Assembly: GCF_032854445.1 (NCBI RefSeq) | Contig: NC_088300.1 | Coordinates: 59,122,984-59,186,983, forward strand | Length of the DNA: 64,000 nt | Direction of reading: 5' to 3' | Origin: Liolophura sinensis | Lineage: Eukaryota > Mollusca > Polyplacophora > Chitonida > Chitonidae | In this document: positions 16,583 to 63,931 of the stretch, one piece after another | Layout: every line of letters starts with the position of its first letter | How positions within the stretch are numbered: position 1 is the first letter of the stretch | Notes under the pieces: generated by a model | Databases searched by the model: none | Told to the model about the DNA's origin: nothing | The model's input: only the letters and a program-made list of their open reading frames with translations | Made by a program: the position numbers and the translations under genes

Positions 16583-19500
16583 ATGATGTACCTAGGATTT
16601 TTCCTCTGTTTGATAGCAGGAGCTTACGCTCAAAGATATGTTTTACCTGCGGCCGGAATCGCCAAAATTGACGCATGCCGAGGTGAGAATAGCATTCCCC
16701 CTTCTTTTCTTTCTTCAGATTACCACGAACATAGACAAAAGTCTGTAGCCGTGACAGAAGCGTAATTTTCTTAAGTCATATAGGTTACGCCAACCTAGTA
16801 AAGCCTGACTGCACACAAGTCAGAGTGTTAATCGCAGCGCTCATTTTCGCAAATCGGTGAGATAGTATCAACCAACTTGTAAAAGTAGTTTCGGAAGAGC
16901 ATATCTATATACATTTATCTAGCCGTTCAATGTTGTACTTACAAGAACAAGGTGTTTAATATTTATTTGATATACAAGACACTGAAACGGTCAAGAAGGT
17001 CAATAATACAACCATTTATCGCGTAAGGCAGTTTGATGGAGATACGTGTCATTCTTTGCATCTATATGTGTGATATACCGCGCTCTCATTATGCGTTAAC
17101 GTTTGCATTAAAACAAGAACTAATTTTACCTTTTCTCCTTTATAGGTTATGACTTTGTTACAAACGCTGCTTTACCAAATGGAACAACATTTATCGACCG
17201 TGCCTTCTATATCTGGGGCGGGAGAAGAATGCCATGTGCCCCAGGAACGTTGTTTTCCTTGAAGCGTACCTCTTGTGTCTGTGACGAACGTGACGGATCT
17301 GCAGTTATAAGTATAAACTATGTTTAACATATATGTCTATGTGCAATTAAGAAATAAAGATTTTTTTATCAAGCATTTGTTCTTCATTTTAGTACAGTGA
17401 ATTTGGATACCTGTGGAGCTTCGTTCTAAAATTTCACACTTTCCACATGTACTGTACTGATATGATGAACAAAGACTAGACAACGAATTTTTTTTTCTAT
17501 TCTCTTCAACTTTTACATATTTATTAGCCACAAAATAGCAGTAACTAGACATTAAAAAGGCATGATATAAGGTGCGATAAACTGTCGACGCCAACATGTG
17601 TTTTACTCTTGAGTGTGTACTTTAACACGGCTTTACTCTCCGATGTGTCCCCTCTAGTGACATCCATAATGTCTGCTTCTAGAAATGGTTTCGTTCTTCT
17701 TCTAAGTCATTAATAAACGAGCGAATACTCATTCGCCTGTCTTTAACCCACAGCGATCGCCGACAGATGTATTACAGTGACAGGCAATCTGCAGACAGAT
17801 CAACAGTTTTCGGTTAATCAGCGAAATGCACTATCTACTTACAATGCATGGGTCAACGGATACAATAACCCTGTGCCCACTGAGAACAGCTGCTTTGCCT
17901 CCAACCTTGATGCGTTCAGGTGTCTGCCCTTGATGCAAGGCTCAAGTCTCGGAAGATCACAACTGAGGCTGATCGTTGGTTTTAATATGCCAGCTGTGCA
18001 AGTCGGACGTCAGTACACTATTGTTAATAATGGCGGTTGCCTCAGTGGTGCCGGAGCTACAATTACACCAAGTTTTATAGTCAACTATGTTACTGGTAAT
18101 CCCGGGCAGCCTGGCGGTGTTCCCCACCAGATGGATGTTACCGTTCGGTTCTCACCCGCGAACATCGTCGGAGCTGCCGAATCCGTAGGTACCTACACCT
18201 GCCAAATTCCGGCTTCCATTACGTCGACCAATGGCCAGAATTTCGTTTGGGTAAGTCAGTCTTGTTTGATATATCCTGTCAAAACATTATATATTTTACC
18301 AGCTGTTGATTCTCCAAGTCCAGAAATTATGAGTGGGCCATATTCCATTAACAACAGACTTATACTGTCCTCGAAACTATGTAACGGTTTGGTTAATGAG
18401 TGACATTAAATACGTACAAGCGACACGATATATAAAATACTGAGCTATATGAAGTTTACTGTTTGGTTTTAATTCAAACAGGCTCTTGCAATTAATTGTA
18501 TTTAAAATGTATTGTCAGCAACCCGCGGATGGTCGTGGGTATGAACTGCCGAAGTGAACATTGAAAATGGACATCTTAGTGGGATATTTTATAAAGTCCA
18601 TTCCTTTGGACTTTGAGAACAAATGCTTTGAAACATGAGGAAAAGGTCGCATCGGTAAAATCTCGGCAGTTTGCATGCAGTTCTAAACAATTCACATAAT
18701 GAATGTCATATTGAAACTTGCGTGGTTTCTTTCCTCTGTTGCGCTCTTTTCGGCTTGCTGGGTCATTGTGATGGTGTAAAGGTTGAAAAGATCTTTAGCT
18801 TACTGTAATGGCCAGTAAAAGTTTGATACGTTGTGACATGAATGTACAGACCGTTTCCACTGACCCGTGACTGCGAGTGGAACGTCCTCTTAGATTAACG
18901 TAGTCACTGGTATGATCCGCGTCCTCTACATTGACGTAGTCATTGGTAGGATTCGTCATGAATAAATAATGAATCCTGAATCCAATCACATTACTTGCCA
19001 TCCAACGGGTGACCAGGAGACGGTCGCGGCTCAGCGAGCAAGAAGCCGCGAACCCAGCATGCACCAGACGGAGCTTCGCACTCCTGATTCTTGTAGACAT
19101 AAGGCCTGGTTGTAATATAACTCCTGCAGACAGGTTCTTGACTGTCTAAGGCCTATAGCTCTGACAGACAAGGCATGTACTGGACGGACGTTGGGCACGT
19201 GCATTGGCATAGAAAAGAACAGAATACTACCGACAGCTCTCCTCTCGATCTATGTTTAATCACGTTGTTGAACTGTAATCACTATGACAACAAATGTTAC
19301 AGACATATGTTGACACTTAAGTTACAATCACGACCAATTAACCATGTTGGATTTCTCGTCTGGTTAAGGAACTGTAGGTCATTGTGAATAAGGTATGGTT
19401 GAGGATCACTTAGCAACTGAATTACTTCTATTTTAAATTGATCCTTCTAAATATTAAAACATGTGAATGTTGAAGATAACATAAAAAGTTACACAAAACT

Positions 19501-30759: not shown

Positions 30760-30867
30760 GATGATCGGCAGCTAGCTGGGATTTACCTTTGCGATGAGTT
30801 TGACTAAACGACCAGCTATCCCGGATGGAGCGTAGCGTTCAAAGGCTGGCTATAGCCCAGCTGATTC

Positions 30868-30875
30868 TTATAAAT
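30868..30875 (+). promoter_or_regulatory. TATA box of the small heat-shock protein gene
   Basis: tataaata would place the transcription start near 30898. That is downstream of the in-frame ATG at 30825, so that upstream ATG is probably not in the mRNA and translation should begin at 31005. Confidence 0.65.
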
Positions 30876-31004
30876 ACAGACAGCGAATCGAGAGAGCGAT
30901 CAAATACCACAGAAGTCAGTCGTGCCCGGACCGAGCCGTATATACTGCCTTCTACTCCTCGCCACCGATTCACGTTGTTGCAGAACCACAAGAAACCTAT
31001 CAGA

Positions 31005-31637
31005 ATGTCTCGAGAAATTATGGTACCAGTGAAGAAGTCTGACTGGAGTTTCTTTGATCGTCAGAGAACGGTTTTTAAATCACGCTACACGAAAACCACT
31101 ACGACTGTGAAAACATCCTCAACGTCAACGACATCCAAGTCTTCAAACACTGGTAACTCTAAAGCGCTGGACAAGGCGGCTTCTCAAGCTCTCGATGTCT
31201 TCAACGAGCCCATGGACAAAACGTTTGAAGCTGAAATGAAGGCGTTTGAAGAAGAGCTTAACAGTTTGAAAAGTAGCATGTTCAAACTGACAGGGGACTC
31301 TTCCATGCTGAAAGTGGACAAGCCTATCGTGGAGGATCTGGAAGGAAGGAAGAAACTTGCTCTCCGTTTTGATGTTAGTGAATTTAAACCGGAGGAAATC
31401 ACAGTGAAAGCGGTGGACAACAGGTTGATGGTTGAAGCTAAGCACTCTGAGGTGACCCCTACCAAGAAAGTGTACCGCGAGTACACCAAGCAGTACATCC
31501 TGCCCCAGAAGATCGACCCCGAGAAGTTATCCTCAATCCTCTCTACGGATGGGGTCCTGGACATCGAAGCCCCGGCACCAGACTCCCTGGAGGCCTACAA
31601 AGAGAGGATCTTACCCATGCTCAGCTTGGACTTTTAA
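31005..31637 (+). CDS. small heat-shock protein (alpha-crystallin family)
   Basis: Single-exon gene of 210 aa. An alpha-crystallin domain spans about residues 113-193, with KLALRFDVSEFKPEEITVKA at its start, then RLMVEAKH and the closing DGVLDIEAP typical of metazoan HSP20 proteins. The N-terminal region starts MSREIMVPVKKSDWSFFDRQ and is followed by a Thr/Ser-rich linker. These proteins act as ATP-independent holdase chaperones in the cytosol and assemble into oligomers. The C-terminal tail is short and shows no clear I-x-I/V anchoring motif. The frame is open back to an ATG at 30825, which would give 270 aa. I chose 31005 because a TATA box lies between the two and because the later ATG has A at -3 and begins a family-like N-terminus. 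A polyadenylation-like attaaa is at 31732. The intronless structure is common for stress genes. Confidence 0.93.
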   Translation: MSREIMVPVKKSDWSFFDRQRTVFKSRYTKTTTTVKTSSTSTTSKSSNTGNSKALDKAASQALDVFNEPMDKTFEAEMKAFEEELNSLKSSMFKLTGDSSMLKVDKPIVEDLEGRKKLALRFDVSEFKPEEITVKAVDNRLMVEAKHSEVTPTKKVYREYTKQYILPQKIDPEKLSSILSTDGVLDIEAPAPDSLEAYKERILPMLSLDF

Positions 31638-51504: not shown

Positions 51505-54500
51505 ATGGCCGATCCGCTTTTTCTCAGACTCTTTGACAATTCCATGGAAATCGCCTCTCCTGCTGATTCTAAATATATGAGAGACGATTCTTTATGCGAG
51601 TCTCCCACCGTAAAATCACTCAAGACAAATCCATTCCTTGGCAAACACAGGTAACTATTTATTTTATTGTCCATCATGTCTGTAGTCATGGCAAATTAAT
51701 ATTTTTGTGTGAATGTCTAGATTAGATTGTCAATATTTTGAAATAAGAACGCAAATGCCATATCTTCATGGTCATAGATTTGTTTTACACCAGCGTCAAA
51801 TGTCAGTGCATATGTTGCTCCTAGAATTATGATTGGATCCAAAAGCTGTTAAGTTTTATACCTTCATCATAGATCACTGTTTATTCTTCCAAAGTATGGA
51901 AATCTGTTTTGAGTGGGTTCCAGGTCATTCTAGTATTGCAGGTAATGACAGGCGGACAAGCTAGCGAAACAAGCGCTATCTCATTTACATATTGCTCAAC
52001 ATGTCTCTGTGTCTGTTTCAGAAGAAGTATATATTTAAGCGGAATTTTATTTCAATTTGGCAAGAAGAACTGGAAACCTTCACTAAAGGGAGATATTTTT
52101 ATAATTTTAATAACACTGTTTCTAATTCTCACCTTCTTACTCTTTCTTCCACGCGAGTAGAAATCATATGCAACAGACTGATTACCGGGCTCATTCAAAC
52201 GAAATCTTATTTAAACAGATTTTATTTACATGATACGGGTGTTTGTGATCATTGACAGGTTGAGGAAACAACTGAGCATATGTTGTTCCGATGCCCACAA
52301 TATACTTTCCAGAGACATCGCTATTATGCGGAACTACTCTGTGCAGGCATTACAGACCCTCGCCCAGACAATGTTTTAAAGCCTTGCAAAAAGTCTCGTA
52401 GAGTTTTGGAAGCTACAGTAAGCTTCTTGCTTCCAGGTGCTAGGAGGAAATTTAGAGTACAGTTCATTCTCAGCTCTATGTTATAATGCATTAATGTGAG
52501 CACTACTTGGTTCCAGCACTGATCATGGCGTGCATCATTCATTAGAATGGAAACGCCATTAAACAAACTACCACCACCACCACCATAGATCACGTGAACA
52601 TATTATTTGGCTTTATACACAGTGTGTATAAATATAACGTATACTTTGATTACTGTAATACACATAATACTGATCACTTCATTGTATTATAAGAGGTCAT
52701 TGCCATGTCTATCCCACGCAAGCTATTGTAGGCTAAGTTGATCGTAACTACCACGGTATACATAACTACCAACGTATATGAAAGTACCAGGGTATACGTA
52801 TTTCTCAAATATGTTTCCCAGATAGTTACAATCAAGTAAACCGTTGACAGCTTTATTGAGTAGGCCCCCAAAACGCTTAAACATGTATGGATATGTTCTC
52901 TGTGAATATAGTGGGACGTTCTTGATTTCCTTTATACAGAGATTTGGCTTGTAGTTTGAATCTCCATGGAAACACTGAGCCATGTTCCCCCGAAAGTGTA
53001 AGTATATACTAAATCGGTAAGTTCCGTTCACGTCATGCGATGTGTCATACCATCTTGTAGCACACAACACAATAAGGCTGTGTACTTTCACATTTATTTA
53101 TATTTTATTTATTTGATTGGTGTTTTACGCCGTACTCAAGAATATTTCACTTATACAACGGTGGCCAGCATTATGGTGGGTGGAAACCGGGCATAGCTCG
53201 GGGGGAAACCCACGACCATCCGCAGGTTGCTGTCATACCTTCCCACGTACGGCCGGAGAGGAAGCCAGCATGAGCTGGACTTGAACTCACAGCGACTGCA
53301 TTGGTGAGAGACTCCTGGGTCATTACGCTGCGCTAGCGCGCTAACCAACTGAGCCACGGAGGCACCACTTTCACATTGCTATTCATCCCAATCAGTATAG
53401 TAATGCCTATATTTATTTGATCAGAGTTTTACGCCGTGCTCAAGAATATCTCACTTATACGAGGAAACCATTGTAGGAGGACACAGGGCATAGCCCGGGG
53501 GAAACCCATGACCATCCGCAAGTTGTTGGCAGACATTCCCATGTACAACCGGAGAGGAAGCCAGCACGAGCTGGACTCACAGCGAGTAGCGCGTACAGAA
53601 GAGGGAATGGAGTATTTATCTTACGTTTACTGCCTAGTTGTTTGGAGAGTCATTCTTTGAGAGACATTCAAGGGAAGTTCAGAAAAGAGTTCTATTTTAT
53701 ATTATTTGCACGTCCACTATTTTACTGTTGTGAGATCGGTTTTGTTCATTCAGAAACTTAGGTACTTTTTCATGAACTCCTGTTACAATCTTTGTGTTCC
53801 CACTTGTCCGCACTGGTTTATCATATTTCACCCCAGGCTTTACAAAGCAGGAGAGGGTACTGTATGCCCAGTATGTTTACATCTAAGCTTAAGAAGAAAA
53901 AACTCTTCCAAAGCTACATATACATATGGTACAGATACAACAACTTACATGTGCTGCATCTACGAACTATTATATGTTTCGATAGAAATAGATAATAAAG
54001 GATCAAAGTACAAGTAAATACATCCATTCGTAATATTTTGCTTGGACATCGATCTGTAGCTTTAGTAAAGATCTGCTTACTCAGGAAGCAGCAGGTACTT
54101 GAGTGTTAAATTAATTTCTTCTTCTAAGTTGGCTAGAGGCTTTTTCTGGTTGTACTGTGACCCTCTCTTACACAGAAATATACTTACTGTTGTAGACGAA
54201 GCTGACGTCAGAGCAGTTTCCCAGACGAGTTGCTGTTCCCGGCTATTTGACCGCTTCGCCCAGCCTTATAAAGCCTGCTAGAATGCTTCTCACGTCAACG
54301 CCCGTAAAACGGCCGAAGATGAAACTTTCATTTCCTCTGTCTCCGTTTGTGGTAAGAACTCTTATCGGTTGTGGCCTTTCATCTTGTAATTTTGTCTGCA
54401 AATACCACATTTCGTAATTTAACAATGTATGCAAATTTTTAATTAGTGCCTGCGGTAAGTAAATGTAAATACACGTAATATTTTGGATTTTTTTATCCAT

Positions 54501-57500
54501 GTTTGACGCCGTAGTAATATTGAACTTATACGACCCAGTCATTGTGGAAATCGTATATACTGCATGTATGTTTTTTGTATATGATTGTCTAATATATTAA
54601 GAAGGGCCACTTGTTTGCCACTAGCTTTTATAACTTATGATTGAAGTCTGATACGTTTGGCTTTGTTTTGCAGACTAAAGATACAACATCCAACGACGGA
54701 GATGGGTCGTTCTATAACACAGAGAAACCCTATTGGGTGGGTGTTTTCTAATGCATACTGTGCGTTTATGTGGTATGCACAAAGAAAGTTGTAATTTAAT
54801 GTGTCTTTCTAACACATCCGTATACCGTAACACACTACAAGCCACAACACTTAGTGGTGGACAACAGTCCAAACCTACATGTATGTAAAATCTGCATTAT
54901 TGGTCACCTTGCCAAGCGCCACACGTTGATTTTTGATTAACTTGCCCGAGTACTGCAATGTTCTATTCTGAACATCTTCAGGGTGGACGATGTCTTTGAA
55001 GCCTTTAAACAAAATAATTAAATACTCAACTAATAACCAGCTCGTTAGAATAGAAGCGAATGTTTGATTTTTTGCACTCCGTTTTAGTGGCATATATTAC
55101 CTTTATTATTAATAAAAAGTACTGTTACATTGCAAGTATTCCTTCTGTAGATCGTTGGCCCGGTGGTGTCTATGGTGCAGTACCCACGCCTGGAAGTAGA
55201 CTCTCCTGTGGCTGGACCGGTCCATGACCAAGCCGCATCCAATGTTACGCCAAAAGAATCCAATAGCCAATGGAAATCTTCTCCCCACTTCGGTGGACCA
55301 TTCAGCCTGGGGTCATCACCAATGAAGACACATATCGACGCTGCTGTGGCACGAGGTGAGTTTTGTTCAAAACTGTACTAAGGTTTCACAATAATGTTTG
55401 TTTTATTACAAACGTCACAATTTACTCCTCTGTCAGCAAAGTTCGTTTCTTCTCTTGTTTGAGGGAGTGTATGTTATACATTTAGAACAGTCAGTACACA
55501 GATTGAGAATTGGTAGGGAACTTTACTTGAGTTAACGTTAAAGTAGTTTTTATCGACATGAGTGTTTCTTCCATTAACAGCTTTCACTCTTTGTGCTTAT
55601 TTAGTTGGCTGTCGTTTTAATTAAACGGTATGCTGACGACGTTTTACTTATACAACGGAGATCAGTTCATGAATGGAAGACACTGTAGTGCTCTGGGTAA
55701 ACCATCCGCATTTGTTAGTGACGAACTTTCTCCACGTATACAGACCAACATGTGGAAAACCTTCAAAGAACTTTACCCTGAATGAAAGAATGCCTGGGTT
55801 TAACGTCGTATTTAACCATTTTTCAGTCATGTACCGGACCAACCAGCTCTGTTTCCTAGCTCTAACCTGCTGAGAACCAAGCGAGGCAGTAACAAATACC
55901 AGTTTTGGTATGTCTCGAGCAGGATTTGATCCCGGGTCTGCGGACGTCGACGCACACGCTCTGACCATTATAGTCACAGAAGCGGTCACCTTTACACTGT
56001 GCAAACAGTTCGATAACCGCCATTAACTGCGTACTGTCACCACCAGTAATGGGAGCGGGGAGGAACAAACATATTCGAATCGGTATTGAGTTCACACTTC
56101 GTGCACCTTGTGCTTACAGGAGTTGCAAGCCTAACCCACTGTACCATGTATATATGTATTACTTACATGCATGTAAAGCATGTTAAATTGCATATACGTT
56201 CGATTTAAACTTTATCGATTTTCCATGTTTCTCCAATACTGATTTTAGCGGACAGTAACCCGGATCTGATCGGAGACGGCACATTCACGTTCTGCTTGCC
56301 GACGGTACCGGGAAAGCACCAGGATCTCAAATCGATCACATCGGAAACCCTGACCAAGGTGATCAACCACGAGTATGATCACATCCTAGAGAAGTACGTG
56401 ATCATCGACTGCCGTTACCCGTACGAGTATGATGGCGGCCATATCCAGGTAAGTACATATTTCCCGCCTGAATATACAGATGCGTGAACTAAAAGTTTTG
56501 ACAACACAGTGAATTATTCTTTTGTGGTGGCAGGTCCGGATCCGGTCTTTCAAAAATGCATTAAGAGTTTAAAAGTCAATACTGGGCTAGTACACAGAGA
56601 TAAAATTCAACCCAAGCCTACGTTGGAATCAGTATGAGTTTTGACAACACAGTGACATATTCTGTTGTGGTGGTAGGTCCGGGCCGGGTTTCTCAAAAAT
56701 GCTTTAAAAATACTGAGATGAAATTTGCAACAAGCCGTCGTTAGAATCAATATGAGTTTTGACAAGACATATTGTGTTGTGGTGCAGGGTACGTCATGCA
56801 GGGGACATACCTTTAGGCGGAGCGTATTATGTTATAGCGATTTTGTCCGTCTGTCAATCTGTCCGTCCGTCCATATTTGTTTCCAGGCTGTAACTATATA
56901 GACTTTTAATTTTTGGTGGATACATACATACACAGATGACAATGTATCGCGACTCACATTTGTCTATTTCTGCGGTTCTCATAGTAACCAGATCGCCATT
57001 TTCTTTATGTATACCACATAAATAGATATGATTTCATTATGCATGAATTTCCTTAGTGTAATTGAATGATATAAAGTGAAAAGTAACGAAATTAATAAGC
57101 ATTAAACATAAACAAGAACAGACCATGGATATTAATGATGCCATGCGGTCCAGCGATGCCATCACTTTAATGAGTTGTTGTTATGCCCGCAGGGCTCTGA
57201 GAACGTGTACACCAGAGACGCCCTGATTGAAAGATTTATTAAAGGCGCTGCTCTATCCAAAACTGAAGGACGACGAAAAGTTCTGATTTTCCATTGTGAA
57301 TTCTCCACAGAACGAGCACCAAAGCTGTAAGTATGAGGACCAGTTCTGTTCTTTTTAAAGCGTATATGCTTTGTTTAGTTATTTGAAAGGCGTTTCACAC
57401 TGCACACAATAAATTATTTCATTTATAGGCGCGGTAGGGCGTATGTGGCGTAGTGGTTATCGTGCTAGTGCGGCACAAACATCGATGAGCTTCTCACCAA

Positions 57501-58715
57501 TGCAGCCGCTGTGAATTCAAGTCCAACCCATGCTTTCTCCATCGTGGTTCGTGGGAAGGCTTATCAACAACCTGCAGATGGTTGTGGGCTTTCCCCTGGC
57601 TCTGACCCGTTTTCGCCCCCGTTTCCTCCCACCATAATGCTGGCCGCCGCCGGTCAAGTGAAATATTCTTGAGTACGGCGTAAAACACCAATCAAAAAAA
57701 AAACTGATAAACTGTCCGACGTAAAGGTTTGCGGAAGAAACGGTATATAAAGCCGCGGGCAACCCTAGTAAAAATACATGCGATGTATAGATTCGATATA
57801 ATGTTAAGCGATTCGACAAAGCCATGTCTGACTTACGTCAAAATTTAAAACCTCGACCGAAACTTAGGTTTTGATGCTATACATTGAAATTTTGACGCAA
57901 TTATCGTAAGATAACATTTACGAGGCGGTCAAAATATTAATTTCTAACGCTCAGTTAAAAAAAATCAAACTAAGTTTCAACTAGAGTCAGAAATGGCTTC
58001 GTAGAATGGGTTCTAGGAGTGTGTCATGCTTATATAGGTCTACATGTCGAAGTTTGATGCACTCTGATTTTCTCCACTCCAAAGTTTGACCGTCGTTATA
58101 TGAACGGAAAATTCTGTAGCGCGATATTGAGCACCAGTTAAGTGGATCTACCGTAGTAGAAGGACACAGTGTATATGGATTTCATTTCAGGTTGAGATAT
58201 TTGAGAAACCAGGATCGAGAACATAACGTGACCAGGTATCCATCCTTGTACTACCCGGAAGTGTATGTTTTACTCGACGGCTACAAGGCATTCTTCTATT
58301 CTCACAAGGTACCTCTTAGACAACATGGCCAAAATGGCTGGCATTGGGGTGACTGAAATATACATGTAATCTGCTAACAAAGAACATATGTTTTGTCTGA
58401 TGTTGTCTTTGCTTTTAACAAAATATATATTTGAGCAGTTCCATATATCTTGACTTCTCAGAATTGTTATATTTTAAAACATTTTGCACATCTGGCCTCC
58501 CCCGTAATACAGCTCACTGAACACACTGGAACACTTTTTTTTCTGTTTTACAGGAGCTCTGCACACCCCAGTCATACCAACCAATGAATGACGAGCTTTT
58601 CGAGGAAGAACTGTGGAAATTCCGGAACGAGGCCAAACACTGGTCTGGGGATAAAAATAAACGAGGGCTGATAAAAACCCGTCTGTCAGCACTGAAGGCT
58701 GTTTACACCTGTTGA
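51505..58715 (+). CDS. cdc25: CDC25-type dual-specificity phosphatase (M-phase inducer phosphatase)
   Basis: Eight-exon model: 51505-51650, 54225-54351, 54674-54736, 55151-55355, 56249-56448, 57193-57326, 58191-58308 and 58554-58715, giving 384 aa. All introns are GT-AG and phases 2,0,0,1,0,2,0 close exactly. CDC25 removes inhibitory phosphates from CDK1/CDK2 and drives cell-cycle entry. The catalytic rhodanese-like domain covers about residues 185-375: [30 protein letters not shown] (DCRYPYE at 234-240), and the C-x5-R loop [11 protein letters not shown] with Cys282 and Arg288; then [17 protein letters not shown] and the C-terminal [12 protein letters not shown] region. The loop reads ERAPK where most family members have ERGPR, and DGYK stands for GGYK. 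The N-terminal region has proline-directed sites such as TSTPVKRPK and LSPF, expected for CDK feedback. Exons 1-2 are less certain than 4-8. Shorter than vertebrate CDC25s. Confidence 0.9.
51840..52590 (+). pseudogene. decayed non-LTR retrotransposon 3' end (RNase H and zinc-knuckle region)
   Basis: In CDC25 intron 1. A frame from about 51896 reads [18 protein letters not shown], an RNase H C-terminal motif. After a one-base shift near 51952 it continues ADKLAKQAL, then shifts again near 52035 into [19 protein letters not shown]. An in-frame TGA at 52253-52255 falls where a cysteine of the Cys-x2-Cys...His...Cys motif ([15 protein letters not shown]) is expected. The frame ends at 52486. About 80 bases later an (ACC)n tract at 52568-52585 forms the 3' tail. 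An RNase H-bearing ORF2 suggests an I-like group element. It is 5'-truncated and dead. Confidence 0.8.
52600..53083. other. CDC25 intron 1, unexplained antisense frame
   Basis: A 122-codon minus-strand frame at 52723-53091 has protein-like composition ([31 protein letters not shown]) but no domain I recognise. Part of it lies over a local repeat of ccaacgtatatgaaagtacc type. It could be a fragment of another mobile element. Confidence 0.25.
53095..53366 (-). repeat. SINE family A, full length with target-site duplication, CDC25 intron 1
   Basis: The inverted tail tttatatttta and tttatttgattggtg, body, and tRNA head (aaccaactgagccacggagg) are complete and little diverged. The direct repeat actttcacatt at 53084-53094 and 53367-53377 flanks it. 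Confidence 0.93.
53411..53587 (-). repeat. SINE family A, head-truncated, CDC25 intron 1
   Basis: It runs from atttgatcagagttttacgc through ccgcaagttgttggcagaca to agctggactcacagcgag, then stops before the A-box end of the head. It lies 45 bases after a full-length copy in the same orientation. Confidence 0.85.
55617..56060 (-). repeat. SINE-derived fragments in CDC25 intron 4
   Basis: An inverted SINE end (gacgttttacttatacaacg, gatcagttcatgaatgg) is followed at 55840-56000 by an inverted family B head: on the minus strand, gatcaaatcctgctcgagac and tgcctcgcttggttctcagc match the start of the 12757 copy. Confidence 0.5.
56495..56790. repeat. ~135-bp tandem duplication in CDC25 intron 5
   Basis: gttttgacaacacagtga recurs at about 56495 and 56637, with a third, partial start (gttttgacaagacatattgt) at 56756. 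tgttgtggtggtaggtccgg and tttctcaaaaatgctttaaa follow in each copy. About two full copies plus a partial third. Confidence 0.75.
57437..57703 (+). repeat. SINE family A, full length, CDC25 intron 6
   Basis: The head gggcgtatgtggcgtagtgg is followed by B-box region gtgaattcaagtccaaccca, then body with gaaatattcttgagtacggc and tail caatcaaaaaaaaaac. A partly duplicated gacccgttttcgccc sits inside the body. Confidence 0.9.
57801..58162 (+). repeat. ~355-bp repeat copy 1 with fold-back core, CDC25 intron 6
   Basis: The core has inverted ends: attcgacaaagccatgtctgac at 57811-57832 pairs with 57986-58007, whose reverse complement is attctacgaagccatttctg plus ac. A further 150 bases beyond the right end are also shared with the copy at 59641. 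The copy ends 28 bases before exon 7. Confidence 0.8.
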
Positions 58716-58772
58716 TGACGTCACTTGGAATTGAGTGATGTCACGCTTTAATGTTGACCTTCTTTTCAGTTA

Positions 58773-58778
58773 TTAAAG
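58773..58778 (+). terminator. candidate polyadenylation signal, CDC25 gene
   Basis: The variant attaaa about 60 bases after the stop codon. A canonical aataaa follows at 59401, and the transcript may use either. Confidence 0.35.
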
Positions 58779-58779
58779 A

Positions 58780-59640
58780 TGTTGGTCAACGACATGTGGA
58801 GAATTAACTGTAAATTTTAAATTGTCAAGGCGTTGACGTGCTTTGTGTTCTTTCCACACTTTAAATGAAAATGTTGTGAGTATCACTTTATTTTTAAATG
58901 TTAAAATGCTTAATTTTGTATTTTAGGAGTTAAATGTTTATCTATAAATATATGTATAAAATGATATTGTAACTGCTCACAAATATAACCATGGACTGAT
59001 GACTTCACCGGCTTCTGAATAACGTCACGCTTTGATGCTGATTTTCATTTTAGTAATTAGAAATGTTGGTCAACGACACGTAAAAAAAACATAACTTTTA
59101 AGTTGTACAACATGGATAAGAAGTGTTCAGGTATTGACGTGCTGCATGTTTATGCCACTCCTTACAATTGCTCGTGAAAGTGGTATATGCATGCTTTCTT
59201 TTAAATGTGTTGTTGATATCACCTTATTTTTAAATGTTCAAATGCTTAGTTGTAAGATTTAATTTGCATCCGTCAACCTATTTTATTCAACGCTATTTTA
59301 ATTTAATTCAAAAGCCAAATGAGAAAAGGCTTGATTCATGTATTCGTTCTCGTAGAATCCACAATGAGTAACGTTATCATTAACTGATTTTTTTTATTCA
59401 AATAAATGATGCATTTTGTACTGTGACCTTAAATGTGGTTTGTTTTAACGTATTAAAGTCGCGGTGAATGGGAGATTAAACTCGAGACGGACGGCAATGG
59501 CACTATACACGTACTTTCGTGCAAAATTAGAGCATCTCTATCCGTGTCTGTATCTGCAGAGATTTCTAAAGTGGCATGTCGGGGAACTCACGTTTGACTT
59601 GCGTGTCAAGCATTGCTCTGGTAACAATTAAGCTGTTAAT
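58780..59640. other. downstream flank of CDC25, no gene
   Basis: Two loosely similar segments (tttttaaatgttaaaatgct near 58890 and tttttaaatgttcaaatgct near 59228, plus ttaatgttgacc and ttgatgctgatt) suggest an old duplication of about 300-340 bases in the 3' flank. No coding frame. Confidence 0.45.
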
Positions 59641-60003
59641 GTGGACCGATTCAAGGTGGCCATGCCTAACTTACGTCAAACTTTAAAAACCTCGTCCGAA
59701 AGCTTAGGTTTTGATATTATATGTTGAAATTTTGACGCAAATGTCTTAAGATAACATTTACGAGGCGGTCAAAATATTAATTTCTAACGCTCAGTTAAAG
59801 AAAAATCAAACTAAGTTTCAACTAGAGTCAGAAATGGCTTCTTAGAAGGGGTTCTAGGAGTGTGTCATGCTTATATAGACCTACATGGGGAAGTTCGATG
59901 CACTCTGATTTTCTCCACTCCAAAGTTTGACCGTCGTTGTATGAATGGAAAATTGTGTGGCACAATATTGAGCTCCAATCAAATGGGTCTAGCATGGTAG
60001 AAG
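59641..60003 (+). repeat. ~355-bp repeat copy 2 downstream of CDC25
   Basis: Direct-orientation copy of 57801-58162. Long near-identical blocks such as ataacatttacgaggcggtc, aaaatattaatttctaacgc and tctgattttctccactccaa are shared. The left inverted end is more diverged than in copy 1. Confidence 0.82.
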
Positions 60004-60009
60004 AAACTC

Positions 60010-63000
60010 TGAAAGCGCAAACCTCCAATACAGTTAAATGCATGCACAAATATTCCACTACAGATCAAGTCGCATCTTGTCATCGTGAATCGTTTGGAAA
60101 TTAATGCAACTTTATCCAGAACTGTGCGTTGTTAAAAATGTTTTAAAAATGTTGGTTTTCCTATCTTAAAATGTACTACCGGTAATGAGATCAGGGTTTG
60201 CACACATGTAGAGCACAATGACACAAGGGGAATATTCCATAGTTAATTGGATGGTGTGCATATTAAATACTGTAAATTACTGAATTCCTTGGTGTGTTGT
60301 GTATTAGAATGAAAGTTAAACAAAATGCTAGGAGTGGTACCCAAAAAAGTACAACATGTATTGGCCTGAAGTTTTACATGCATATAAAGCACAATGACAC
60401 GAGGGGGACGATAGACGATGCTATCTCTGCATATTAATATCGTAAATTGCCAAATTCACAATTTCAGTACTTTATGCGTTTTGAGCTGAAGTTTTGCATT
60501 CATGTGTCTCCTACAGACGAGCTCTTTGGTAGACCTGCCACCAATCTAAGTTCATTGTATATAATGTTTTTGGCTATACATATACTGGTTGCCTCGTCTG
60601 TTGCCCCACTTCAGCTTTTCCCCAAAGCAGTCATAATCTGTAGCAAACTTGCCTTCTCCCATTGCCAAGTACTGCAACAAGATCTATACATCGAAAAATT
60701 GGGTATACGCAGTATGCTATATAATAAAGAAAATGAAATTAATATTCATGCACATTCCCTTATTTATAATGTGAAAGTTCCTGTACCTGTTTTCGATGCC
60801 AAGAATTCATTGTCGTGTGACGTCATCGTTATTACAAAAAAAGGACTTTTTTGGAGAATGGGCGGTGTCATCTGAAAAATAATACCGAATCACGATGTTG
60901 AAAATAAGATTTAATTGCATGTTTATACCGATCTTAGACTATCAGCCTTTTCTCCTGATATTCTCGATGCAACCTTATAAAAATGCGAGACCCCTGTGAT
61001 AAAAAATAAATGACATCCCAGCCATGCAGTGTCTTGATACTGACGGTACTTGATCTGTTCCCCGATGATGAGCTCAAGACAGGAAATGCCTACTGGTTGT
61101 CACCTAGAGGATAAATCCCTTCCTCATAGAGTAGTAGAGATGTACGTGTATAATTAGATGAAACTAAATATTAATGCTTGTCCAGATGTAAAGTAACCTT
61201 GAGAACATTAGACGTATATCTACATGTTCGCACTGATGGACTAGCTCTGCCACAAGAAGTCACAAAACATGTACACTCACCTATGATTCCTCCTCGCCAT
61301 ATGACTCAAAAAAGTACGACGAAAAGCCTTATGCATATATACATGATTCTGGTCCAAGCTGTGTGGTCCCATGTTCTTTCCTGCCTTTGCCATTGTTCTG
61401 TAGACAAACTGGTACGTATTATTCCTACAGAACTAGTCAATCCGGCCTATAGCCAGAGTCGCCATTGCGCGGGAGAAAGTACCCCCACCTCGAGTAAACT
61501 ACTGACGTATTACTCAAGTATTGCAAGAAAACAATAGCCAGTCCAGGTTAAACCCAGAGTCCACAATTTTCTGGAAATAGTACCCGGCTGTTAACCCACG
61601 TGATTCGGATAACAGGCCTCGGACCCCCATTAATTTTCCATAAGCGACAATGTTAACGTCTAGCGCTGTAGCTCAGTCCCAAACATTCCGTGGCCATTAA
61701 GCTTTGGTGCATACCTGGCCCAGCCTGTGAGAAAGAAGCCATAAAAATCTTGACATAGGTTGACCGTCAAAATCTGGACCTTTCCATGCCGGCAGCTGGG
61801 AGGCGTGCCTAGCAACGCCAAGGGGACGTCACTCGCAGCCTCATCACTACCTCACACCTTGTGTCCTCTCGCCCAGAATTTCAAACTTTCATCAATAAAG
61901 CTCATACCTCCTCAAAGTTTAGACAGTTTCCAGCATTTTAATACCAAGCATGCACCTGTGCACCAAAAATGGACGCCTGGGAGCAAAAAAAGACTTTTTA
62001 CCTTAAAATTCACAGAACTACAATCGTCCCTACCGAAAAACGGAAGTTGTAATGGGGGTCTGTGTCCAACAGCAGTCAGCTATGATTTCATATAATGTGG
62101 CCATAGTCGTATACCAGAGAAAGAAGTACCCCATACGAGCAATGAAACCAACTGTCGTTGGCGTTGTAGGTTGCAGATTATTTAGCGTTTCAGTCAAATG
62201 ACGACTGTCTCCTTGTAGCAGGGTCGACCACAATCCACAGTGGTGCATCGAATGTGCTTGGTACCCAGGCAAAGCCTGACCAACACAAGTCAAGCAGACA
62301 GTGTAAAGAACGGCGGTTATGAAGTCTTATGTATGGCCAGACGAGGGATTGAACCTCTGAATCGCAGAGCATTGGTTGTCATACATACGTACATACTAAA
62401 ACAGAGCAACAAAGTCGCAAATGTGAATTATTTTGTTGTTTATTATAGTTTCATGGTTACTGGATTTGTATATACAGTGTGTTCAATTAATAACAATCTG
62501 CCTATATATACAGTTGTAAGAAAATAGTAAAGAAAACGTAGAGTTGTATCGTACCGTTTTTTCAATAAAAAGTCATGCACCCATTAATGCGTGTTGCCCT
62601 TAAAATTCAGTTACCAAATAAAAAGTTCACATAACCTCTAAACAATAAACAAAAGGATCAGCACAAATAAATTTATACTTAAATATTTCAATAAATAATG
62701 CTCAAATACAATTCTGAGGGTAAAAGGTAAATTTGCGTCCATTGAATATAAATAAGCTAAGCGCATGTATTATGGGAAAACAAGTTAATTGAGATAAAAA
62801 GCAGATCATTAAATAGTTGAACATATACATATTTACAGTTGCTAACATTTGGAAGGTCGATCGTATATACAGCGTAAATTTATTTACACGAAATTGAGAA
62901 AACAAATAAATAAATAAACATAACTATATATTTGCCATAACATGACATAAAACATTCTAAAGCACTTCATAAGATTTTCGCTCAATACGCTCAAACTTAC

Positions 63001-63117
63001 CCCCAGTCAATACTTCCATTTAAATTAAAAGGTTAACGATTTCTTTAATGTTATAATATACCGGGGAACATTTTGCACACTCCAATACCAACAGTTTTAA
63101 CCATGTCTTAAAATCTT
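60010..63117. other. intergenic between the convergent CDC25 genes, no gene supported
   Basis: A 142-codon frame at 60447-60875 and a 111-codon frame at 61760-62095 have no recognisable domain or splice support. A degraded SINE family B-like segment at about 61185-61330 carries gatggactagctctgccaca. A tRNA-like B-box in minus orientation (gaggttcaatccctcg when inverted) is near 62341-62356, probably another SINE head. Confidence 0.45.
62878..62883 (-). terminator. candidate polyadenylation signal, second CDC25 gene
   Basis: On the minus strand this reads AATAAA, 235 bases after the stop codon of the minus-strand CDC25 gene. Other AATAAA-like sites occur in this AT-rich flank, so the choice is uncertain. 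Confidence 0.3.
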
Positions 63118-63931
63118 TCAGAAACCAAGTCTTCCTCGTGCCGACCGAGATTTCTTGTCACCAGCCCAGGACTTTGATTTTATCCGAAATGTCCTCAAAT
63201 CTTCTTTGTAGTCCTCGTGAAGCATGGGTAAGTAGGTCTGAGGTTCACATAATTCCTGCAATAACAAATAACAGTCATTGAAACCCGAGTTTGTTGGCTG
63301 CCCTTGCCTTATCAATAGTGTGATTCAATGATATTATACAGGGTGCCCCAGAAGTCGTGCTCCATCTTAATTTTCATATCTTTTCTGTGTTTCAGATTTA
63401 ATACTGATTTTAAATTTGTTTCTTACTCTTTCAGACTTAATTATGGCTAATAAACTAACAGTACAAGAAAGAGTTGAATTGGTTTTTATGTTTGGAAGAG
63501 ATGGGGCAACACACCGCTCTGTAGCTCAAGCATTCAACCTCAACCTGGATGGTGTGCGACTTCTGGGACACCATGTATATGTGAGAGTAATGTAATGGTG
63601 CTGCGATTGTCCGACAGGTCAATATTTCTCAGCACACACGCATGCCAACAGCTGTATTCTCATGTGCTATGTTAGCATGCAATAAATAAGCAGATTCAGT
63701 ACTTTGAGAGGATGGAATAAATGAACAAGCATCCAAACCAATTTATAGCAGCTTGACGAAACGAATTATTGGGTACTAGTGTACTATTATTATCCATGGT
63801 TATCGATATTTACCTTCTGTGTTTCAAAGAAATTCTTGTAGCCCCCGTGAAGAATGTAGATTTCTGGGTAGTGGAGATGGGGGTAGTACTGTTTGTTCTC
63901 TTCACGATCCATGTTACGAAGAAATCGTGAC
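63118..63931 (-). CDS. cdc25: second CDC25-type phosphatase, C-terminal two exons (continues past this interval)
   Basis: Minus-strand exons 63931-63814 (118 nt) and 63255-63118 (138 nt) joined by a GT-AG intron. The first reads [20 protein letters not shown] then [15 protein letters not shown], the region just after the catalytic loop. The second reads [20 protein letters not shown] then [15 protein letters not shown] and ends at a stop. The 118-nt exon has the same length and phases as exon 7 of the plus-strand gene, and the GGYK and SWAG motifs are closer to the usual family than in that gene. The catalytic loop and N-terminus lie beyond the right edge, so completeness cannot be judged. 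The two genes are convergent, 4.4 kb apart between stop codons. Confidence 0.9.
63338..63574 (+). mobile_element. internally deleted DDE (mariner/IS630-like) transposon
   Basis: Terminal inverted repeats: ggtgccccagaagtcgtgc at 63342-63360, and at 63554-63572 a sequence whose reverse complement is ggtgtcccagaagtcgcac. Between them a frame begins at 63443 with [20 protein letters not shown] and [11 protein letters not shown], a helix-turn-helix start like that of mariner-related transposases. The catalytic part is deleted and the frame runs through the right end to a stop at 63595. It lies inside the last intron of the second CDC25 gene. Confidence 0.78.

Follow-up and report, generated by a model that had tools for sequence, protein, structure and literature searches.

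CDC25 triggers cell division in a dose-sensitive manner, and the animals studied have few copies of it. Three CDC25 genes are present in human and two in the fly. The enzyme strips from CDK1 the phosphates added by Wee1 and Myt1, and in C. elegans four genes encode it (PMC1482691). These have differing roles, including roles in the germline, to judge from titles cited in a further study (PMC13398180). The copies of the chiton Liolophura sinensis described here resemble this family (human CDC25A, CDC25B and CDC25C, fly string and twine, C. elegans cdc-25.1 to cdc-25.4) in a catalytic domain that can be aligned with human CDC25A and CDC25B, in the HC-X5-R loop and in the RYPYEYxGGHI motif.

The window, a stretch of 64,000 nucleotides (C6:59122984-59186983), belongs to an assembly of 609.46 Mb in 632 contigs, which was first published as Liolophura japonica (PMC11068029) and whose species was corrected to L. 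sinensis (PMC12441733). It holds a convergent pair of CDC25 genes, A on the plus strand and B on the minus strand. As the first-pass annotation had described, the genes are arranged tail to tail with some 4.4 kb between their stop codons. Both are intact, and the exact distance is 4,402 bp. The labels A to G for the dispersed genes and Q and R for the arrays are our own naming, and the gene models were computed with a simple custom spliced aligner. The parts of the two genes are as follows.

51505-58715, plus strand: gene A, from the ATG at 51505 to the stop codon at 58713-58715; seven predicted exons, product of 350 residues
51505..51650, plus strand: gene A exon 1, predicted; open from the ATG, ending ...GKH, canonical donor gtaact
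54264..54351, plus strand: gene A exon 2, predicted; AG/GT sites frame-compatible, an alternative acceptor start at 54282 also in frame
55151..55355, plus strand: gene A exon 3, in frame; ends ...HIDAAVAR, donor gtgagt at 55356
56249..56448, plus strand: gene A exon 4, 200 nt; lies in the presumed conversion tract, about 56244-56454
57193..57326, plus strand: gene A exon 5, 134 nt; catalytic loop HCEFSTER (C-X5-R)
58191..58308, plus strand: gene A exon 6, 118 nt; canonical GT/AG sites
58554..58715, plus strand: gene A last exon, 162 nt including the stop
63118..63255, minus strand: gene B last exon; stop at 63118-63120, ends LGF
63814..63931, minus strand: gene B exon 6, 118 nt; canonical GT/AG sites
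C6:59187214-59187347 (window equivalent 64231-64364), minus strand: gene B exon 5, past the window edge
C6:59187548-59187747 (window equivalent 64565-64764), minus strand: gene B exon 4, past the window edge
about C6:59188243-59188489, minus strand: gene B exon 3, past the window edge
about C6:59189.38-59189.67 kb, minus strand: gene B exon with the DSG motif, past the window edge

The rest of gene B lies to the right of the window and was modelled there (exons 5, 4 and 3 and the DSG-motif exon). In gene A the last four exons (200, 134, 118 and 162 nt) are secure, and exons 1-3 are frame-consistent predictions, exon 2 being less certain than the catalytic exons. Human CDC25B matches the last 92 residues of gene A alone with E=1.7e-30. 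The end of exon 3, ...HIDAAVAR, is the counterpart of ...IKTALDR in the paralogues. A genome search with the N-terminal 147 residues of gene A found nothing related at any other locus. The residue differences that had been pointed out between the two proteins are seen in the alignment, with LLDGYK and KHWSGDK in A against LHGGYK and SWAGDK in B. The possibility that A and B are haplotypes of one locus was ruled out by their amino-acid identity of about 62%.

Several other features were observed in the window. The segments 57799-58162 and 59637-60003 form a direct repeat pair, 88% identical over 367 bp, which is probably a mobile element; the first copy is located in an intron of gene A, immediately before the 118-nt exon; the second is downstream of the gene. 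A short plus-strand open reading frame at 63441-63590, within the last intron of gene B, presumably resembles the N-terminus of a transposase-like protein. The plus-strand reading frame at 30804-31637 carries an Hsp20/alpha-crystallin domain (PF00011, E=2.5e-16) and represents a small heat-shock protein gene, and that at 17747-18403, also on the plus strand, encodes 218 residues with no Pfam match. The Rfam search of the window gave no match.

The catalytic domain of all CDC25 copies aligns end to end with those of human CDC25A and CDC25B. The rhodanese-type domain model PF00581 scores above its curated cut-off in A, B, one array unit and F. The N-terminal model PF06617 gave no match in these proteins. 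In a search of the genome it also had no match, but neither had it any in the control genomes, so the genome search is uninformative. The HC-X5-R loop is intact in A (HCEFSTER), in B (HCEFSSER) and in most units; it is lost in Q07 and Q08 (Cys to Ser), and its His is altered in R21. The DSG element in the N-terminal half of CDC25 M-phase inducer phosphatases occurs in the dispersed genes B to G as well as in the arrays Q and R and is absent from A only; membership of the family does not strictly depend on it. The motif resembles, we assume, the beta-TrCP phosphodegron of CDC25A. To judge from its sequence, gene A, which has no such degron-like motif, is perhaps under a different turnover control.

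The first-pass annotation had assumed that many invertebrates have few CDC25 genes. This is wrong for the present genome, in which two whole-genome protein searches, with only the best candidates scored, found a total of about 41 catalytic units of CDC25. Seven of them are dispersed genes, and 34 belong to two tandem arrays. Besides A and B, the following loci were located by their exon matches.

C6:59.2013-59.205 Mb, minus strand: gene C, about 15 kb to the right of B
C6:58.282 Mb, minus strand: gene D
C6:50.090 Mb, minus strand: gene E
C9:11.011 Mb, minus strand: gene F
C9:11.064 Mb, plus strand: gene G
C6:40.493-40.534 Mb, minus strand: array Q, 12 units of about 3.63 kb
C6:69.788-69.861 Mb, plus strand: array R, 22 units, mostly of 3,354 bp and about 99.7% identical

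The catalytic exons are open in all seven dispersed genes, and about 30 of the 41 or so copies have both an intact frame and the catalytic motif. TAG triplets inside the last-exon matches were judged not to be real stops, since they arise where the AG of the acceptor site is read through. Genome searches found WEE1 at one locus on C1, and CDK1 at one best locus on C1 together with a second locus that is CDK2-like, a label taken from its identity. Genes F and G form a second linked CDC25 pair on C9, in head-to-head arrangement with about 53 kb between them. Literature searches for CDC25 arrays, CDC25 expansions and chiton CDC25 found no published account. A partial genome duplication has been published for L. 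sinensis (PMC12005716); the part of that paper available to us gives no chromosome numbers by which a link with CDC25 could be tested.

We propose, with a probability of roughly 0.7, that A and B are members of an amplified CDC25 family which has grown by duplication and in which catalytic exons are exchanged by ectopic conversion. The number of copies would have increased through duplication and unequal crossing-over. The catalytic exons, where they are the sole similar stretches left, would be swapped between copies by ectopic gene conversion, and the N-terminal regulatory halves, introns and flanks would diverge meanwhile.

The 118-nt exon following the catalytic loop was correctly identified in both A (58191-58308) and B (63814-63931), with matching phases. 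It had been taken as a sign that the two genes arose from one gene by inverted local duplication, and this conclusion is not supported. The plan of 200, 134 and 118 nt is common to all seven dispersed genes, on two chromosomes and in the same phases, with 137 replacing 134 nt in D. The exon cannot join A and B because it is a feature of the whole family, including F and G on C9. Its nucleotide identity to A is 0.585 in B, 0.585 in C, 0.585 in F and 0.593 in G; outside exon 4, A is as distant from B as from the other copies. In both arrays a single fused exon of 455 nt (200+137+118) is found, and the introns that elsewhere separate exons 4, 5 and 6 are missing. Presumably the ancestor of the arrays had already lost these two introns.

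Exon 4, with a nucleotide identity of 0.910, is the one part in which A and B are close; the corresponding values are 0.522 for exon 5 and 0.585 for exon 6. A blastn alignment of A 56244-56454 with B gives 91.0% over 211 bp, the neighbouring introns being unalignable. Counted over codons with a conserved amino acid, the synonymous differences are 7/59 in exon 4, and they reach 34/58 over exons 5-7 (p=9.1e-8 by Fisher's test). The pairs A-C, B-C, A-F, B-E and B-F lack such a synonymous contrast in exon 4. For F and G there is a weaker excess of identity in exon 4, with 19/62 against 39/79 synonymous differences (p=0.027).

It could still be argued that one local inverted duplication produced A and B, that a division of labour followed, such as one between germline and soma, and that exon 4 is merely the part that was conserved. 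The two genes are adjacent and convergent and have matching exon plans, and the exon 4 DNA tree contains a clade of A and B with support 90/93. In exons 5-7 this clade is not recovered; its p-AU of 0.071 is near rejection but non-significant. However, every dispersed gene has this exon plan, a clade of A, B and C is rejected in exons 5-7 (p-AU 0.027), and the synonymous counts given above differ too strongly between the exons. The NG86 dS of the pair, 0.25 in exon 4, has reached saturation in exons 5 and 6, and a single duplication date is excluded because one age cannot yield both values within one gene pair. We therefore consider this origin of the pair unlikely. Constraint acting directly on exon 4 might also account for a high identity there, yet the synonymous sites of A-C, A-F and B-E show no such excess.

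Gene conversion between two old copies is the simplest reading of exon 4, as judged from the sequences, and the exchange at this exon may have been cDNA-mediated. A local duplication of A and B that was then followed by conversion is possible. The true position of A in the tree is unsure owing to long-branch effects. In exons 5-7 the end branch of A is 1.61, compared with 0.10-0.26 in the other dispersed genes. This part of gene A has thus evolved several times faster than the other copies, with the frame, splice sites and C-X5-R motif intact. An exon-sized gene conversion can mimic a recent duplication, and caution is needed when tandem pairs are dated from one exon.

A similar patch of identity is found between the two arrays, which are located 29 Mb apart in opposite orientation. 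R and Q share 96-98% identity over the fused catalytic exon; the values for intron 3 and the last exon are 88% and 90%. Elsewhere the identity is 53% in intron 2, 74-80% in exons 1-2 with intron 1 (80% in exon 1), and 61-70% in the flanks. It climbs abruptly where the catalytic exon begins and drops at the stop codon. In the catalytic part, 8 of 173 conserved codons differ synonymously. These features make exchange between the arrays likely. Such an exchange would have taken place at the DNA level because the tract includes intron 3, and a cDNA-mediated route was ruled out here on the same ground.

Compared with a reference unit along their length, with introns and spacers counted in, the R units are 98.8-99.8% identical. 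Within the array the mean dS is 0.009 and the mean dN 0.002. A full R unit encodes a protein of 342 residues (MASLLAKKLFDDDSF...) with an RDSGIG motif. Complete frames are found in 17 of the 22 R units, and the HC-X5-R motif is unchanged in 16 of these, R21 having YC in place of HC. The damaged units are R01, without exon 1; R06, with a frameshift; R13 and R14, with a common insertion; and R16, with a stop. Array Q is more diverse (dS 0.06, dN 0.02), and seven of its 12 units are complete with the catalytic Cys. Unit Q04 has a premature stop, Q12 is broken and has a premature stop, and Q01, the first unit, meets a 200-N scaffold gap. In Q07 and Q08 (C6:40511325-40511765 and 40507719-40508163) the catalytic Cys is replaced by Ser, giving HSEFSSQR. 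This is the classic substrate-trapping change, and the two units could interfere with other copies if expressed. In most Q units (C6:40.4955-40.5320 Mb) the last CDC25 exon is present twice, the additional copy being located about 1 kb further downstream, for example at 40495518-40495628; this is perhaps an alternative or relict 3' exon.

The unit counts have to be read together with the quality of the assembly. The published chiton assembly was made from 14x HiFi reads with a mean of 8.3 kb, which is less than three R units in length, so that the copy numbers of the arrays are uncertain. With units of 3.35 kb, and with a scaffold gap inside array Q, these numbers might be assembly artefacts altogether. 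However, array R is gap-free with zero N, its units bear distinct mutations and have variant lengths, and the Q units are several percent apart. An artefact of this kind seems very improbable.

The arrays could act through gene dosage, be selfish, or consist in part of decaying DNA. If they were largely non-functional, macrosatellite-like tandem DNA that carries a recently duplicated CDC25 gene, the very high identity of the units would be expected, as would the lesion common to the neighbours R13 and R14, the premature stops of R16, Q04 and Q12 and the frameshift of R06. Against this, the dN of 0.034 between R and Q is below the dS of 0.076, and about 24 units have full frames over four exons with predicted splice sites, which makes such a description quite doubtful. 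The ten or so array units that are damaged or catalytically altered are as compatible with a relaxation of selection as with selection for dosage.

A selfish or sexually antagonistic origin, in which an amplified CDC25 would be favoured by transmission bias, as for Stellate or other ampliconic germline genes, and not by a benefit to the animal, has some attraction. A cell-cycle regulator has been amplified in near-identical tandem units, nearly all of them on one chromosome; the Cys-to-Ser copies Q07 and Q08 could bind without catalysis; and there is a partial fit to the profile of a suspected driver (PMC12941216). Most units nevertheless keep an intact active site, and their dN is below dS, which would hold for useful genes too. 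This origin is improbable in our opinion, though deserving of consideration.

In the amplified family that we favour, most copies are predicted from their catalytic motifs to be active dual-specificity phosphatases that would remove the inhibitory phosphate from CDK1/CDK2. The likeliest role of the amplification would be to supply a particular cell type with more, or with specialised, CDC25 activity; the germline or the early embryo is the most plausible guess. The division of roles in C. elegans makes, by analogy, a division of the dispersed chiton copies among tissues plausible. We suggest tentatively, at somewhat less than even odds, that CDC25 is here a high-copy tandem gene, with dozens of copies active opposite a single WEE1, that serves as a dosage device of the germline or of cleavage or has been amplified selfishly, and that conversion keeps the catalytic exons uniform as the regulatory halves diversify. 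With some 30 copies apparently intact, this genome is a natural experiment in how the control of CDK1 copes with or exploits an amplified CDC25.

The comparison with known systems can be made at three levels. The human, fly and C. elegans families differ from that of the chiton, in which 34 of about 41 units are in tandem arrays with fused exons. The Stellate/Su(Ste), TSPY and Slxl1/Sly systems resemble the chiton arrays in having many near-identical copies of a cell-cycle or germline gene, some of them damaged; the chiton arrays, however, encode a phosphatase whose predicted direct target is CDK1. The patches of identity between inverted genes, and between arrays on the same chromosome, are like the concerted evolution of multigene families by ectopic gene conversion, but in the chiton the patches cover the catalytic exons and the N-terminal half is left to diverge.
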